This document shows positions 2,176 through 6,894 of a DNA stretch of 6,894 bases, one piece after another (within the stretch, counting starts at the first letter, position 1; each line of letters opens with the position of its first letter). The notes beneath the pieces were generated by a model. It ran no database searches. It was given only the letters and a program-made list of their open reading frames with translations, and was not told the origin of the DNA. A program made the position numbers and the translations under genes. Source of the stretch: JAUXIQ01 sp030620925 [NCBI: Nitrospinota bacterium] (lineage in GTDB: Bacteria; JAUXIQ01); NCBI GenBank assembly GCA_030620925.1, contig JAUXIQ010000105.1, positions 1 to 6,894 of the forward strand. Reading direction: 5' to 3'.

Positions 2176-2184
2176 TTTCTTTGT

Positions 2185-2207
2185 GCCGTAACACAGGTAT
2201 TTACGGC
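2185..2207 (+). terminator. Weak candidate terminator hairpin after the membrane-protein gene
   Basis: GCCGTAA (2185-2191) and TTACGGC (2201-2207) form a perfect 7-bp stem with a 9-base loop, nine bases after the stop codon. Only a poor T-run follows (CATTTATAA), so it may be a processing or pausing structure and not a true intrinsic terminator. Confidence 0.35.
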
Positions 2208-2230
2208 CATTTATAAGGGACAGGGCCGCT

Positions 2231-3508
2231 TCAAAGGCTCCCCATGAGCCTTTCGTATTCTTCCCTTATCTGATCCCTGAAATCGGGGGGGGCTATTTTA
2301 AGGAGAGAGTGAGCGCGTTCCTTGAGCGTCTTGCCGCGAAGGTCGGCGTGCCCGTATTCAGTCACCACGAACTGAACGTCGTGCCGGGGGGTGGTGATGG
2401 TGGTGCCCTGCCTGGGTGCGGCGACGATTCGGGAGTGCTTACCGTTGGGTGAAGTGGAGGTCATAGCGGTGATGGCCATGCCCCCGGGTGAATGCTCGGC
2501 GGCGCGGACGAAATCCAGTTGCCCCCCCACGCCGGAAATCTGCTGCGTACCAATCGACTCGGCGTTTATCTGCCCCCGAAGGTCCACCTCTATGGCCGAG
2601 TTGATTCCCACAAAGTCAGGTATTTGCCCCAGTACGTCTATGTTATGCGTGCGCTCCACGGAGTCCACCAATATCCTGGGGTTATTGTCCGCATAACGGT
2701 AGAGGACCTGGGTGCCCATCAAGCCGGCGGTGATGGAGACCCCGTGGTCGAAGGGTTTGCGGGTGTTGGTGACCACCCCTCTTTCTATCAGGTCTATGAT
2801 GCCGTCGGTCAGCATGCCGGAGTGGATTCCGATCTCCTTCTTATCCACCAGGAAGCGCTGTATCATGTCCGGAACGGCCCCCAGGCCGAGTTGGAGGCAT
2901 GCCCCGTCGGGTACGAGGTCGGCCACGTTCTCGGCCACCTTCTTCTCCACCTCACCTATCTCGCCGGTGGGCATCTCCAGAAGCTGCTTAGTGACTTCTG
3001 CGGCGAGTTCTATCTCCGATTCGTGGATGAGGGTCGGCTCCCCGGTGCGGGGAACATTTTCGTTTATCTGGGCAATGACTGTCTTCGCCACCCGGGCGAC
3101 GATAAGAGCTATCCCCAAAGAGATGCCGGTGCTCATGTACCCCCTTTCGTCCGGGGGACTTAGCTGAAGCACGGCCGTATCTACAGTGATGATGCCTTCC
3201 CTGAACAGCTTGGGCATAAAGGATATGTTCGAGGGGATATACTCCGCACGGCCCTCCCGCAGCGCTTCCCTTGATGGGGGGCTGCCCAGGAAGGTGAGCA
3301 GCTTGAAGCTGCCGTCCATCTCAGGTTCGAGGTACTTGCATCGGCTGGGGTGGTGCAGGCCGTTGATAATCTTCACATCCCGCAGTTCATCTTTACGGGC
3401 CACGAGCGCATCCACCAGTGCCACAGGCTCGTTGCAGGCGTGGCTCACAAACACCGTCTGGCCCGATTTTATCACCGAAACCGCTTCTTCCGGAGAAACG
3501 ATTTTCAT
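2231..3508 (-). CDS. Acetyl-CoA hydrolase/CoA-transferase family protein (AbfT-like) lacking the catalytic Glu
   Basis: A 425-residue cytoplasmic enzyme of the family that includes 4-hydroxybutyrate CoA-transferase (AbfT). It aligns along its whole length. Family landmarks are SPPDERGYMSTG in the N-terminal half, then LQLGLGAVPD, LTDGIIDLIERGVVTN, and in the C-terminal half SIGTQQISGVGGQLDFVRAA, ITTPRHDVQFVVTEYG and ADLRGKTLKERA. The usual reaction moves CoA between carboxylic acids through a glutamyl-CoA intermediate. AbfT has HSEM with catalytic Glu238, while this protein has HSGM with Gly231 (codon 2816-2818). It may therefore be a hydrolase-like or altered enzyme. ATG 3508 was chosen over a TTG at 3547 because AGAGGA (3518-3523) lies nine bases ahead, and the promoter at 3554-3581 would make the TTG nearly leaderless. 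It is divergent to the B12-subunit gene. The acid substrate is unknown. Confidence 0.9.
   Translation of the reverse strand: MKIVSPEEAVSVIKSGQTVFVSHACNEPVALVDALVARKDELRDVKIINGLHHPSRCKYLEPEMDGSFKLLTFLGSPPSREALREGRAEYIPSNISFMPKLFREGIITVDTAVLQLSPPDERGYMSTGISLGIALIVARVAKTVIAQINENVPRTGEPTLIHESEIELAAEVTKQLLEMPTGEIGEVEKKVAENVADLVPDGACLQLGLGAVPDMIQRFLVDKKEIGIHSGMLTDGIIDLIERGVVTNTRKPFDHGVSITAGLMGTQVLYRYADNNPRILVDSVERTHNIDVLGQIPDFVGINSAIEVDLRGQINAESIGTQQISGVGGQLDFVRAAEHSPGGMAITAMTSTSPNGKHSRIVAAPRQGTTITTPRHDVQFVVTEYGHADLRGKTLKERAHSLLKIAPPDFRDQIREEYERLMGSL
2233..2253. terminator. Hairpin overlapping the end of the CoA-transferase gene
   Basis: AAAGGCTC (2233-2240) and GAGCCTTT (2246-2253) make a perfect 8-bp stem around CCCAT. 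The stem includes the last codons and touches the stop codon of the minus-strand CoA-transferase gene. No T-run follows on either strand, so a role as bidirectional terminator between the convergent genes is only a possibility. Confidence 0.3.
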
Positions 3509-3553
3509 ATCCTCAAATCCTCTTTTTTTGGTGGGGATTTCGATCAATCCTGA

Positions 3554-3581
3554 ACTATAGCATAACTCGACGTCATCTCAA
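3554..3581 (-). promoter_or_regulatory. Sigma-70 promoter for the CoA-transferase gene
   Basis: Read on the minus strand: TTGAGA (3576-3581), 16-base spacer, TATAGT (3554-3559). Both boxes match consensus at five of six positions. TGC directly before the -10 gives an extended -10 (TGnTATAGT). Transcription should start near 3547, leaving a leader of about 40 bases with the ribosome site AGAGGA. Confidence 0.6.
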
Positions 3582-3627
3582 AAATAAAGAAGAGAGTATG
3601 ACATTCACAAAAGTTTTGGAAGGGAGT

Positions 3628-3656
3628 CTGAGGGCCCCGCCGCAGGCGGGACTCAG
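3628..3656. repeat. GC-rich hairpin, possible interspersed intergenic repeat
   Basis: CTGAG-GGC-CCCGCC (3628-3641), loop GCA, then GGCGGG-A-CTCAG (3645-3656). The outer 5-bp and inner 6-bp stems pair perfectly around a small internal bulge. It is far more GC-rich than its flanks and is followed by AATGACA, a layout that recalls short hairpin repeats scattered between genes in many bacterial genomes. No second copy is in this window. No T-run follows, so it is not an ordinary terminator. Confidence 0.45.
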
Positions 3657-3749
3657 AATGACAATTGAGGCGTTTCAGCGGCAGTTCGATCACTGTATCA
3701 TTAAGAGAAGCGGGATTTCTATCAAAGCGGTTCTCTCAGTCGAAGGATA

Positions 3750-3778
3750 TTGACACAATTAGATTCAATCTGTAACAT
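3750..3778 (+). promoter_or_regulatory. Sigma-70 promoter for the B12-subunit gene
   Basis: Perfect TTGACA (3750-3755), a 17-base spacer, and TAACAT (3773-3778, four of six matches). The small inverted repeat AGATT-C-AATCT (3761-3771) sits exactly between the boxes, where a repressor could act. The expected start is near 3785, giving a leader of about 63 bases, too short for a cobalamin riboswitch. Confidence 0.6.
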
Positions 3779-3847
3779 AATCATCACCGATAGCTTTTCA
3801 GGATTCGAATTCAATGCCGTGCTGCATAAAACCAACCGGGAGGAATA

Positions 3848-4252
3848 ATGGCAGAAACCGGACTCAAAGTAATCATGGCCAAGCTGGGCCTCGACGGGCA
3901 CGACAGGGGCATACTGCTGGTGAGCCAGTGGCTCAGGGACGCAGGCCTCGAGGTCATCTACCTGGGCGGATACCAGACGCCTGATAACGTGATCAACGCC
4001 GCAATCCAGGAGGACGCCAAAGTAATCGGCCTCAGCTTCGCCGGCGGAGACCACCTGTTCCACACCGCAAAGATGGTGGAAAAGCTAAAAGAAAAAGGGT
4101 TGGGGGATACAATCCTTATAGCAGGCGGAGTCTTCCCCGATCAGGATATACCAAAGCTGAAAGAGCTGGGGGCGCAGGAGGTTTTCGTAGCCGGAACGCC
4201 CATGCAAACCATAGCGGACTACATGACGGGCCTCAAAGAGAGCGTATCCTGA
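3848..4252 (+). CDS. Cobalamin-binding small subunit of a methylmalonyl-CoA-mutase-type acyl-CoA mutase
   Basis: 134 residues forming one B12-binding domain, equal to the C-terminal domain of methylmalonyl-CoA mutase or to the separate small subunit of two-part mutases such as 2-hydroxyisobutyryl-CoA mutase. The DxHxxG motif is intact (Asp16, His18, Gly21 in LDGHDRG; the His is the lower cobalt ligand). It is followed by the GLS motif (Ser63) and the AGG motif (Gly93-Gly94) that line the nucleotide tail. Family members carry out adenosylcobalamin radical carbon-skeleton rearrangements together with a large TIM-barrel subunit, and no such subunit is in the window. ATG 3848 follows GGGAGGA (3838-3844) closely. 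The gene is divergent to the CoA-transferase and convergent with the CMD gene. A decayed partial copy lies at 4816-4987. Which acyl-CoA it serves cannot be told from this domain alone. Confidence 0.92.
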   Translation: MAETGLKVIMAKLGLDGHDRGILLVSQWLRDAGLEVIYLGGYQTPDNVINAAIQEDAKVIGLSFAGGDHLFHTAKMVEKLKEKGLGDTILIAGGVFPDQDIPKLKELGAQEVFVAGTPMQTIADYMTGLKESVS

Positions 4253-4313
4253 ATCAGCCAGCCGGTCCCCTCTGCCCCTGCGTAAAAAGTCCCGGAAAGG
4301 GTAAACGGTGCTG

Positions 4314-4715
4314 CTACTCCTCTTCCCACTCCCCTCTCTTCTCGAGCACTTCTTTCAGGGCGAACATGCCCTCCACCATGGTGGGCATCCCACCGTAAAC
4401 GGCCATCTGGAAGATGACCTCCGCCACCTCTTTGGGCTCTGCGCCCACGTTCAGCGCGGCGTCGATGTGCATCTTAAGCTCGTTGTTGCGGTCCAGCACG
4501 GTGAGGGCGCCCACCGCACAGAGCTCCCGCTCACGCTGGGTCAATACCTCCCTGGAATAGAGGCGCCCGATCGTAAACATCGAGAACTGCTTGGCCAGGT
4601 CCTTATCGAACTTACGCCAGATGTCATAGGGCCCCTCGCCCCTTGTCTGTTTCCCGAACAACATATCCGTAGTCTTCCTGGTGAGCTCTTTGAGTTCATT
4701 GATATCGTCGGTCAT
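4314..4715 (-). CDS. Carboxymuconolactone decarboxylase (CMD)-family protein, copy A
   Basis: 133 residues with one all-helical CMD domain. Recognisable parts are GRLYSREVLTQRERELCAVG (51-70), KMHIDAALNVGAEPKEVAEV (81-100) and IFQMAVYGGMPTMVEG (101-116). The family contains gamma-carboxymuconolactone decarboxylase and the AhpD peroxidase. This protein has a single cysteine (Cys66) and no CxxC, so an AhpD-type disulfide role is unlikely; a lactone or beta-keto-acid type reaction is possible but unproven. The ribosome site AAGGAGG (complement of 4721-4727) is excellent, five bases from ATG. The gene ends 61 bases from the convergent B12-subunit gene. It differs from copy B at 11 residues: 16, 22, 23, 28, 31, 48, 49, 58, 77, 78 and 106. 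Confidence 0.88.
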   Translation of the reverse strand: MTDDINELKELTRKTTDMLFGKQTRGEGPYDIWRKFDKDLAKQFSMFTIGRLYSREVLTQRERELCAVGALTVLDRNNELKMHIDAALNVGAEPKEVAEVIFQMAVYGGMPTMVEGMFALKEVLEKRGEWEEE

Positions 4716-4790
4716 CGCTGCCTCCTTTTTCAGTATGCCTGATAACTAATCTTTCATCCCAAACCGGGGTGGACTCAAAAAACAGGGGGT

Positions 4791-4799
4791 ATTATATCA
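4791..4799 (-). promoter_or_regulatory. Extended -10 promoter for CMD copy A
   Basis: On the minus strand this reads TGATATAAT, a perfect extended -10 (TGnTATAAT). No convincing -35 box lies 17 bases upstream, as is common for this promoter type. The leader to the start codon is about 68 bases. The same nine bases stand before copy B. Confidence 0.55.
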
Positions 4800-4815
4800 G
4801 GAAAACGGGAAGTAA

Positions 4816-4987
4816 GTGTCTAAGACCGGCTTTTTCCGTCTGAGGCTAATTAGAGGCGGTTACGGAATTTTCCCCGATCAGGATATACCCAGGCAAAAAG
4901 CTTGGGGCGCAGGAGGTTTTCGTAGCCGGAACGCCCATGCAGACCATAGTGAACTACATGACTGGCCTCAAAGAGAAGGTATCCTGA
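4816..4987 (+). pseudogene. Frameshifted remnant of the B12-subunit gene
   Basis: From 4870 the sequence repeats the last part of the intact B12 gene. FPDQDIP is kept, then 27 bases of the original are matched by 25 here. This -2 shift breaks the frame before the conserved tail resumes as QEVFVAGTPMQTIVNYMTGL and stops at TGA 4985-4987. Upstream, LIRGGYGIFPDQD resembles LIAGG-VFPDQD of the intact protein, so decayed homology may reach about 4848. A GTG at 4816 preceded by CGGGAAG reads MSKTG, like MAETG at the intact start, which hints at a large internal deletion; this is weaker. The DxHxxG cobalamin motif is missing, so the remnant cannot make a working subunit. Confidence 0.8.
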
Positions 4988-5055
4988 ATCGGCCGGCCGG
5001 TCCCCCCTGCCCCTGTGTAAAAAGCCCCGGAAAGGGTTGTCTCCATCGAGCGATG

Positions 5056-5457
5056 CTACTCCTCTTCCCACTCCCCCCTCTTCTCGAGAACTTCTTTCAG
5101 GGCGAACATACCCTCCACCATGGTGGGCATGCCACCGTAAGCGGCCATCTGGAAGATTACCTCCGCCACTTCCTTCGGCTCTGCGCCAACGTTGAGCGCG
5201 GCGTCGATGTGCATCTTAAGCTCGCGGTGGCGGTCCAGCACGGTGAGGGCGCCCACCGCACAGAGCTCCCGCTCACGCTGGGTTATAACCTCCCTGGAAT
5301 AGAGACGCCCACCCCAAAACATCGAGAACTGCTTGGCCAGGTCCTTATCGAACTTACGCCAGATGTTATAGGGCCTCTCGCCTCTGGTTTCCTCCCCGAA
5401 TAACATATCCGAAGTCTTCCTGGTGAGCTCTTTGAGTTCATTGATATCGTCGGTCAT
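5056..5457 (-). CDS. Carboxymuconolactone decarboxylase (CMD)-family protein, copy B
   Basis: Paralogue of copy A with the same length and 122 of 133 residues identical. The helical CMD core (RERELCAVGALTVLDR, MHIDAALNVGAEPKEVAEV) and the C-terminal 27 residues are unchanged. The differences are partly paired: TI to WG at 48-49, NN to HR at 77-78, KQ to EE at 22-23. FWGGRLYSREVI is closer to the family pattern as I recall it than FTIGRLYSREVL of copy A. The reading frame, ribosome site (complement of 5463-5469) and extended -10 promoter are all intact, so both copies are probably expressed and under selection. The family contains gamma-CMD and AhpD; no CxxC is present, and the reaction is unknown. 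Downstream on the plus strand lies the B12-gene remnant. Confidence 0.88.
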   Translation of the reverse strand: MTDDINELKELTRKTSDMLFGEETRGERPYNIWRKFDKDLAKQFSMFWGGRLYSREVITQRERELCAVGALTVLDRHRELKMHIDAALNVGAEPKEVAEVIFQMAAYGGMPTMVEGMFALKEVLEKRGEWEEE

Positions 5458-6430: not shown

Positions 6431-6894
6431 TTACCTCTTTTCCACCGCCTGCTCGTTTTCTTCGATCCAGTCGTGGCCGCAGCGAAGGGCCTGCTTGTTC
6501 ATGGAGAAAAAGCCCTCCTTGCCGCTCTGCTGAAGGCTTTCACTCAGGGCCCCTTCCAGGGCTTCTATGGGCAGAGCGCCGGTAATCGCAGTGTAGGCGC
6601 CCAGCAGGACCAGGTTGAACACCCGGTTGGTCTCAATTTCCTGGGCCAGGTCGCTGGCGGGCAGGGCTACTACGTTGATATCGTCCCGGGTAACCTCGGC
6701 GGGATCGACCAGCGAGTTGTCGATGATTAGGGTGCCCCCGGGAACGAGGTCTTTTTCATAAATCTTCAGAGCCGGGAGGTCGGCGATTATCATTACCTCC
6801 GGGACGGAAATGAGGGGGGATAGTATCTCCCTGTCGGACAGGACGACATAACAGGCCACCCGCCCTCCCCTGCGAAAGGTATCGTAGGTCGGGA
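6431..6894 (-). CDS. 2-oxoacid:ferredoxin oxidoreductase gamma subunit, partial (N-terminus outside window)
   Basis: The frame is open to the window edge, giving about 154 residues of a gamma subunit whose first few dozen residues are missing. An internal GTG at 6859 is not the start, because family-like sequence continues upstream: PTYDTFRRGGRVACYVVLSD corresponds to the PSYGxExRGG..C.V..SD segment of the family. LISVPEVMIIADLPAL, VPGGTLIIDNSLVD and NLVLLGAYTAITGALPIEAL follow. In this family the gamma subunit joins alpha and beta subunits and a ferredoxin-like delta subunit to oxidise pyruvate, 2-oxoglutarate or branched 2-oxoacids to acyl-CoA while reducing ferredoxin, typically in anaerobes. 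The gamma subunit is often last in the operon, so the other subunits are probably just to the right. It looks most like the 2-oxoglutarate type (KorC), but the substrate is not certain. Confidence 0.88.
   Translation of the reverse strand, partial: PTYDTFRRGGRVACYVVLSDREILSPLISVPEVMIIADLPALKIYEKDLVPGGTLIIDNSLVDPAEVTRDDINVVALPASDLAQEIETNRVFNLVLLGAYTAITGALPIEALEGALSESLQQSGKEGFFSMNKQALRCGHDWIEENEQAVEKR

Follow-up and report, generated by a model that had tools for sequence, protein, structure and literature searches.

The window analysed here is a 6,894-nucleotide stretch of DNA from JAUXIQ01 sp030620925, a Nitrospinota bacterium (genome G000; contig JAUXIQ010000105.1), and its minus strand carries a gene for a homologue of the family I (class I) coenzyme A (CoA) transferases Cat1 and AbfT. 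In textbooks, class I CoA-transferases exemplify covalent catalysis by a glutamate (Glu). The window protein has glycine (Gly) in place of this residue, and belongs to an old Glu-less group of Cat1/AbfT-like proteins with histidine (His) at the internal oxyanion-hole position, which is occupied by asparagine (Asn) in most Glu-bearing relatives. One Glu-less family I enzyme was already known, ThnP (N47_E41340), an intramolecular CoA-transferase of the Cat1 subgroup in the anaerobic naphthalene degradation of culture N47, with Gly238 for the Glu (PMC11659651; also treated in the review PMC12016498). In the open-access literature searched, we did not find the Glu-less group as such, its spread, its invariant His or members without a spare Glu. 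The gene and the sites that define the protein are the following:

2231..3508, minus strand: coding sequence of a Glu-less family I (Cat1/AbfT-like) CoA-transferase homologue, 425 amino acids, from domain, NCBIfam and PDB matches
2816..2818, minus strand: Gly231 (GGC) at the catalytic Glu position (AbfT Glu238, AarC Glu294), from alignments
2645..2647, minus strand: His288, at the position of the internal oxyanion-hole Asn (AarC Asn347 column), a His that all 65 Glu-less rows share
2723..2725, minus strand: Gly262, by spacing the ThnP Glu269 column; phenylalanine (Phe) in 99 of 102 Glu-type rows
2879..2893, minus strand: QLGLG, the CoA loop (QXGhG motif, residues 206-210), kept; from the sequence, with the motif from PMC11659651
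2510..2533, minus strand: GVGGQLDF (residues 326-333), the external oxyanion hole region, counterpart of AarC GIGGSGDF/Gly388, kept

Both the N- and the C-terminal AcetylCoA_hydro domains lie on the single window chain (PF13336, 184 bits; PF02550, 71 bits), which shows whole-chain homology to the class I Cat1/AbfT enzymes and has both their QXGhG CoA loop and their GxGG external oxyanion region. The butyryl-CoA:acetate CoA-transferase model TIGR03948 scored 280.8 bits, under its equivalog cut-off of 674.8. A PDB search with the protein matched 20 sequences, including the 4-hydroxybutyrate CoA-transferases 3eh7 (E 7e-100) and 3gk7 (E 9e-93). We also obtained an AlphaFold2 model from a three-row alignment (predicted local distance difference test, pLDDT, 69.5; predicted template-modelling score, pTM, 0.65), and Foldseek placed 2oas, 3gk7 and 3eh7 as the top matches of this weak model, at root-mean-square deviations of 14-16 Å. 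As a prediction, the model confirms a class I CoA-transferase fold and supports the fold only; because of these deviations, active-site distances were not taken from it. The likelier start of the coding sequence is the ATG at 3508, which has an AGGAT-like ribosome site in front and from which window residues are numbered; the open reading frame list starts the same coding sequence at TTG 3547.

The codon at 2816-2818 reads GCC on the plus strand and GGC on the minus strand, within an HSGM motif. Gly231 stood opposite the Glu of HTEM, HTEL or HSEM motifs in all five PDB alignments printed (from the 20 sequences matched); in 3gk7 this Glu is residue 238 by the chain numbering, and a bridge through Escherichia coli ScpC gave Gly231 = ScpC Glu286 = AarC Glu294. 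The initial annotation was thus right in reading a Gly at the catalytic Glu position, two base changes away from a Glu codon, and the Glu that forms the acyl-glutamyl anhydride in class I Cat1/AbfT enzymes is absent from the window protein. The alignment it had called for, which could have placed another Glu in the catalytic position, revealed none inside the HSGM motif; the nearest, Glu225, lies six residues upstream of Gly231 in a column that is variable in the 103 Glu-type rows (aspartate (Asp) 69, Asn 11, Glu 8, His 8, others 7).

We searched for homologues in 59 and then in 386 genomes drawn across the domain. The second search used a profile built from three Gly rows, listed matches down to E 1e-60 and scored no more than four candidates in any one genome. 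The first alignment comprised 109 rows (the window, 107 other places from the 386-genome search, and L022), and its catalytic column contained Glu in 100 rows, Gly in 4, a gap in 3, proline (Pro) in 1 and Asp in 1. The Gly rows were the window, L011, L013 and L029, the Gly of L011 depending on the placement of a one-residue gap that can fall on either side, and the gap rows were L036, L043 and L103, with HSLLVD- or HSLIVD-like motifs. Glu is nearly universal in this column; Gly is rare, and the exceptions are not singletons.

A column-by-column comparison of the 109 rows revealed one window position, His288, at which the Glu-less rows (Gly or gap) had all gained the same residue and no Glu row carried it: His stood in 7 of 7 Glu-less rows, against 0 of 100 Glu rows, 94 of which had Asn. 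This paired change at 2645-2647 had escaped the initial annotation. Further rows came from the phylum of G084 (50 Glu-less rows; 51 of 95 genomes matched, and G472 was left out) and from a large dsrA-bearing phylum (five matches, three Glu-less and two Glu-bearing). In the resulting 163 rows, all 59 Glu-less rows had His, and the 102 Glu rows had Asn (96), serine (Ser, 3), cysteine (Cys, 2) or Gly (1). The class of G625 contributed six more rows with Gly and His, and a contig of a viral collection one row with Glu and Asn, so that over 170 rows His was present in 65 of 65 Glu-less and in 0 of 103 Glu-bearing rows, with Asn in 97 of the 103. The Pro variant L021 and the Asp variant L112 have no His (methionine and Cys, respectively, at the Asn column); both fell outside the Glu-less group in a quick tree, and neither entered the careful tree or the counts of 65 and 103. 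L021, at L127:6564-8471 in G039, is a divergent family member. Window His288 equals ScpC Asn339 and AarC Asn347: the internal oxyanion-hole Asn of class I enzymes is missing from the window protein, which has instead the His shared by the Glu-less group. Asn347 of AarC both forms the internal oxyanion hole and serves to orient and polarise Glu294 (PMC4876117). The loss of the Glu was thus accompanied by a change in the residue that assists it.

A substitute Glu could stand at column 262. Here, 54 of the 59 Glu-less rows had Glu (50 of those 54 from the G084 phylum), or 60 of 65 with the later rows, and L185 and L186 combined Gly at the catalytic site with Glu 31 residues further on, as printed for ThnP. 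Glu was lacking in the window (Gly), L183 (valine, Val), L013 (Asn), L029 (Ser) and L011 (gap). We therefore rejected a substitute Glu at this column for the window protein, which has Gly262 where ThnP has Glu 31 residues after its Gly. As the spare Glu is absent from these five rows, it is not the shared answer of the group, and the His can be.

The careful tree was built from 54 of the aligned rows after removal of the catalytic, His and 262 columns. All 16 Glu-less rows, including the window, lay on one side of one branch (bootstrap/Shimodaira-Hasegawa-like approximate likelihood ratio test 100/97; 99% of 200 bootstrap trees), and the Glu-less branch of the quick tree, with 72 chosen rows, had a support of 98. 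The trees are unrooted, and to call the group a clade presumes that the root lies on the Glu side, which is suggested by the presence of Glu in AarC and ScpC, both more distant. From these sequence comparisons, the loss of Glu and the gain of His would most simply be one ancient event followed by long conservation, rather than many separate events. The Glu-less members came from six phylum-level groups, namely those of G000 (the sole genome of its phylum in the sample), G039 (3 genomes), G036/G182, G084 (95 genomes), G288/G149 and G023, in whose phylum 395 genomes were searched and five matches were listed over a strict threshold, three Glu-less and two Glu-type. The group-by-group searches used strict thresholds to Glu-less profiles, and their counts favour the Glu-less group. 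A scan of genome contigs gave one locus, in Desulfoluna, and two viral-contig scans gave one contig, both of Glu type.

Ratios of nonsynonymous to synonymous substitution rates (dN/dS) were 0.06-0.27 in ten related Glu-less gene pairs, among which the window gene is not included, and indicate purifying selection. Of the residues conserved in 97% or more of the Glu-type rows, most were also present in 13 or more of 17 divergent Glu-less rows. Those lost were Glu231 and Phe262 (0 of 17 each), and arginine (Arg) 80 was retained in 8 of 17. The initial annotation had regarded the gene as not obviously decaying, and the conserved group, these residues and the selection in the pairs agree with it. 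Sequencing error or decay as the cause of Gly231 was judged unlikely on the same residues and dN/dS values. We found no close relatives of the window gene, the best identity being 46%, and no second copy in the 445-contig assembly of G000, where it is the single match.

Two further features of the window accompany the gene:

3554..3581, minus strand: promoter-like TTGAGA-16-TATAGT with an extended -10 (TG), consensus match only
3848..4252, plus strand: B12-binding small subunit or domain of an acyl-CoA mutase, the divergent neighbour (TIGR00640, 120 bits, cut-off 57; PF02310)

The promoter, described as strong in the initial annotation, holds as a consensus match and not as a measure of strength (3 sites of this type in 2180-3900, where shuffled sequence has a mean of 1.0). 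Positions 4126-5457 contain a tandem duplication with a spacing of about 740 bases (91-92% over most of its length), whose unit is the end of the B12-binding gene plus a carboxymuconolactone-decarboxylase-like gene; it has left two copies of the latter (4314-4715 and 5056-5457, both minus strand) and a remnant of the B12-gene end. Positions 6431-6892 encode a gamma-type subunit of 2-oxoacid:ferredoxin oxidoreductase, and another gene of this kind adjoins a mutase pair on contig C439 of G000.

We found 19 matches to the mutase large-subunit model in G000 (2.5 Mb), 17 of them over the cut-off; contig ends truncate several of them, which makes this roughly the upper limit for the number of genes. 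The 17 matches are on contigs C374, C176, C39, C311, C439, C282, C122, C118, C330, C398, C154, C262, C226, C97, C353 and C41, and some adjoin class III CoA-transferase, FAS1-type dehydratase, MmgE/PrpD or 2-oxoacid oxidoreductase genes. This set perhaps serves branched or alkyl-dicarboxylic acids.

In G674 and G532, of one genus (L200/L201), an acyl-CoA mutase large subunit gene is likewise divergent from the Glu-less gene. G036 (L123) and G182 (L124) share the order enoyl-CoA hydratase-family gene, class III CoA-transferase, acyl-CoA dehydrogenase, Glu-less gene. The enoyl-CoA hydratase-family gene of G036 is a homologue of MenB/BadI-like ring enzymes, below cut-offs, and its Glu-less gene is followed by a 3-hydroxy-3-methylglutaryl-CoA (HMG-CoA)-synthase-like gene with ChsH2-type domains and by a thiolase (PRK06157 over its cut-off, BbsB far below); in G182 the HMG-CoA-synthase-like gene and thiolase are some 5 kb off on the other strand. 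A thiolase (PRK08256 over its cut-off) also lies two genes downstream of the Glu-less gene in G149. The acyl-CoA dehydrogenase directly upstream in L123 and L124, of which L187 (G488) has the N-terminal domain only, compares with thnO-thnP in N47. In L187 this domain is an open reading frame of its own (L187:9040-9447, 135 amino acids), the Glu-less gene comes next (likely ATG at 9474), and a CitE-like lyase, below the NCBIfam cut-off, lies downstream. In G625 (L189), a MaoC-like gene, also below the NCBIfam cut-off, overlaps the start of the Glu-less gene.

The Glu-less enzyme probably works by a different chemistry. We consider the chances about even that the window enzyme is an intramolecular CoA-transferase, which would move CoA between the two carboxyls of one dicarboxylic mono-thioester. 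Its substrate would probably be a substituted succinyl- or glutaryl-CoA. The free, distal carboxylate of the substrate would fill the room left by the missing Glu side chain and attack the thioester to give a cyclic anhydride, and the CoA thiolate, still bound by the conserved QXGhG loop and GxGG region, would reopen the anhydride at the other carbonyl. His288 would hold or polarise the carboxylate or oxyanion, as Asn347 does for Glu294 in AarC. Succinyl- and glutaryl-type esters would suit this scheme, with closure of a five- or six-membered anhydride. In G000, the enzyme may in this way put CoA on the carboxyl that a B12 acyl-CoA mutase or beta-oxidation requires, which is the weakest step of the proposal.

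Intramolecular transfer is suggested by ThnP, which transfers CoA from one carboxyl to the other within a molecule and for which an internal anhydride of the substrate is among the mechanisms weighed by its authors (PMC11659651). Next to it stand the single branch, the invariant His, the purifying selection in the pairs and the buttressing of Glu294 by Asn347 in AarC. Finally, L185 and L186 have the Gly with Glu at +31, acyl-CoA dehydrogenase genes neighbour Glu-less genes as in thnO-thnP, and mutase genes are divergent from them in the window and in L200/L201. The MenB/BadI-like homologue and thiolase of L123, the MaoC-like gene of L189, the CitE-like lyase of L187 and the 17 mutase large-subunit matches of G000 point the same way.

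Several observations weigh against intramolecular transfer in the window enzyme. The membership of ThnP in the Glu-less group, and its His, were inferred from residue spacing; searches for ThnP in the phylum of a dsrA-positive genome and in the class of G625 gave ThnP-like residue patterns and not ThnP. The perfect association of Glu loss and His amounts to one event plus conservation, since both lie on one branch, and 50 of the 65 Glu-less rows are from one phylum (G084). The window branches early in both trees and its placement inside the Glu-less group is weakly supported; its nearest rows by path length are the Glu-type L182 and L184, the latter with the highest identity (46%). As the window is a whole contig, its gene context is short, and the stretches read around L011, L036 and L183 showed no informative gene nearby. 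In the G084 phylum, an inosine-uridine nucleoside hydrolase adjoins the Glu-less gene in 32 of 34 loci (tblastn; L134 and L190, both among the 34, are one genome), with no hint of a dicarboxylate. Among the G084 loci L125, L190-L192 and L132-L161, Pfam identified this hydrolase in L152 and L192, and it has no obvious link to CoA chemistry.

The main rival is a C-C hydrolase like IpdAB, because IpdAB resembles glutaconate CoA-transferase in sequence and is without its Glu. Here the fold without Glu would bind an acyl-CoA and hydrolyse a C-C bond by a retro-aldol or retro-Claisen reaction with His288 as the base. IpdAB has Gly57-beta for the Glu and opens a ring, with no CoA transfer detected in the assays that the source describes, and the Glu-less genes of L123 and L124 stand with an enoyl-CoA hydratase-family gene and a thiolase, comparable to the set echA20/ipdAB/fadA6 (PMC5380842). 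The analogy with IpdAB gives a hydrolase role some probability. However, IpdAB is a two-subunit protein of the glutaconate-CoA-transferase type (PMC5380842), and the assayed Cat1-type Glu-less enzyme, ThnP, shifts CoA (PMC11659651); we therefore regard this alternative as not likely.

The initial annotation had proposed an altered member of the family, perhaps of thioesterase/hydrolase or regulatory type. An altered member it is, as one of a conserved Glu-less group, and the suggested roles found no direct support. The one characterised family I enzyme that we found with this substitution, ThnP, performs an intramolecular CoA transfer (PMC11659651). An acyl-CoA thioesterase would use His288 to activate water in the space left by the Glu, and a His near the thioester site would be a plausible base; the word hydrolase in the Pfam names is merely a label. 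We consider it unlikely, as the protein retains the CoA loop and the external oxyanion motif typical of transferases, and the sole activity found for a Glu-less single-chain family I enzyme is an intramolecular transfer that saves the CoA (PMC11659651).

A pseudoenzyme, a regulatory CoA-binding protein, a decaying copy or an assembly error would fit a gene that is a single match in a fragmented genome, with a best relative at 46% identity and outside the dN/dS pairs. The frame is open, however, Gly or a gap occurs together with His in independent genomes, the related pairs are under selection and near-invariant residues are kept, which makes these explanations quite improbable. Ordinary intermolecular transfer through an acid relocated to column 262 is very improbable: Glu is frequent there and Glu269 was considered by the ThnP authors, but the window and four other rows lack it, and in ThnP it lies 6.5 Å from the CoA sulphur in a model, with no external donor found in the experiments reported (PMC11659651).

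More broadly, and with somewhat less than even confidence, we propose that a group in at least six phylum-level groups gave up covalent Glu catalysis, that the carboxylate of the substrate catalyses instead with Asn changed to an invariant His, that some members, including the window protein, do so without a spare Glu, and that the group would be a general CoA flipper between dicarboxylic ends, in some lineages feeding B12 mutases. The invariant His, which replaces the Glu-steering residue in every Glu-less relative read, is the single residue to test for Glu-less catalysis. This also suggests that Glu-less genes, where they are named 'acetyl-CoA hydrolase/transferase' or 'butyryl-CoA:acetate CoA-transferase', should not be interpreted as encoding butyrate- or acetate-exchange enzymes.

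Apart from ThnP and IpdAB, we found no Glu-less class I enzyme among the open-access papers listed on such enzymes and on intramolecular transfer. Among the closest known systems, ThnP is, like the window protein, a single Cat1/AbfT-like chain with Gly at the catalytic Glu and the QXGhG loop kept, as far as its printed residues tell. ThnP uses no acetyl- or succinyl-CoA donor, and its authors leave open how it works, weighing Glu269 against the internal anhydride (PMC11659651). ThnP differs in having Glu269 31 residues after Gly238, where the window protein has Gly262, and its gene, part of the thn operon, adjoins one for an acyl-CoA dehydrogenase, whereas that of the window diverges from a gene for a mutase B12 domain. 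AbfT (3gk7) and the butyryl-CoA:acetate CoA-transferase (TIGR03948) resemble the window protein over the whole chain (37% for 3gk7 in the fold alignment), with Glu238 changed to Gly and the oxyanion-hole Asn to His in the window protein, which scores 281 bits with TIGR03948, far below 675. IpdAB, a class I hydrolase that cleaves a C-C bond in the ring of COCHEA-CoA, shares the class I homology and the Gly for the catalytic Glu and differs in its two glutaconate-CoA-transferase-like subunits (PMC5380842); this alpha/beta two-gene architecture is not seen in the window, where one chain holds both AcetylCoA_hydro domains. Finally, the mesaconyl-CoA enzyme shifts CoA within one dicarboxylic acid, as in the reaction proposed here, and unlike the window protein it belongs to family III and has a catalytic Asp (PMC9196870).
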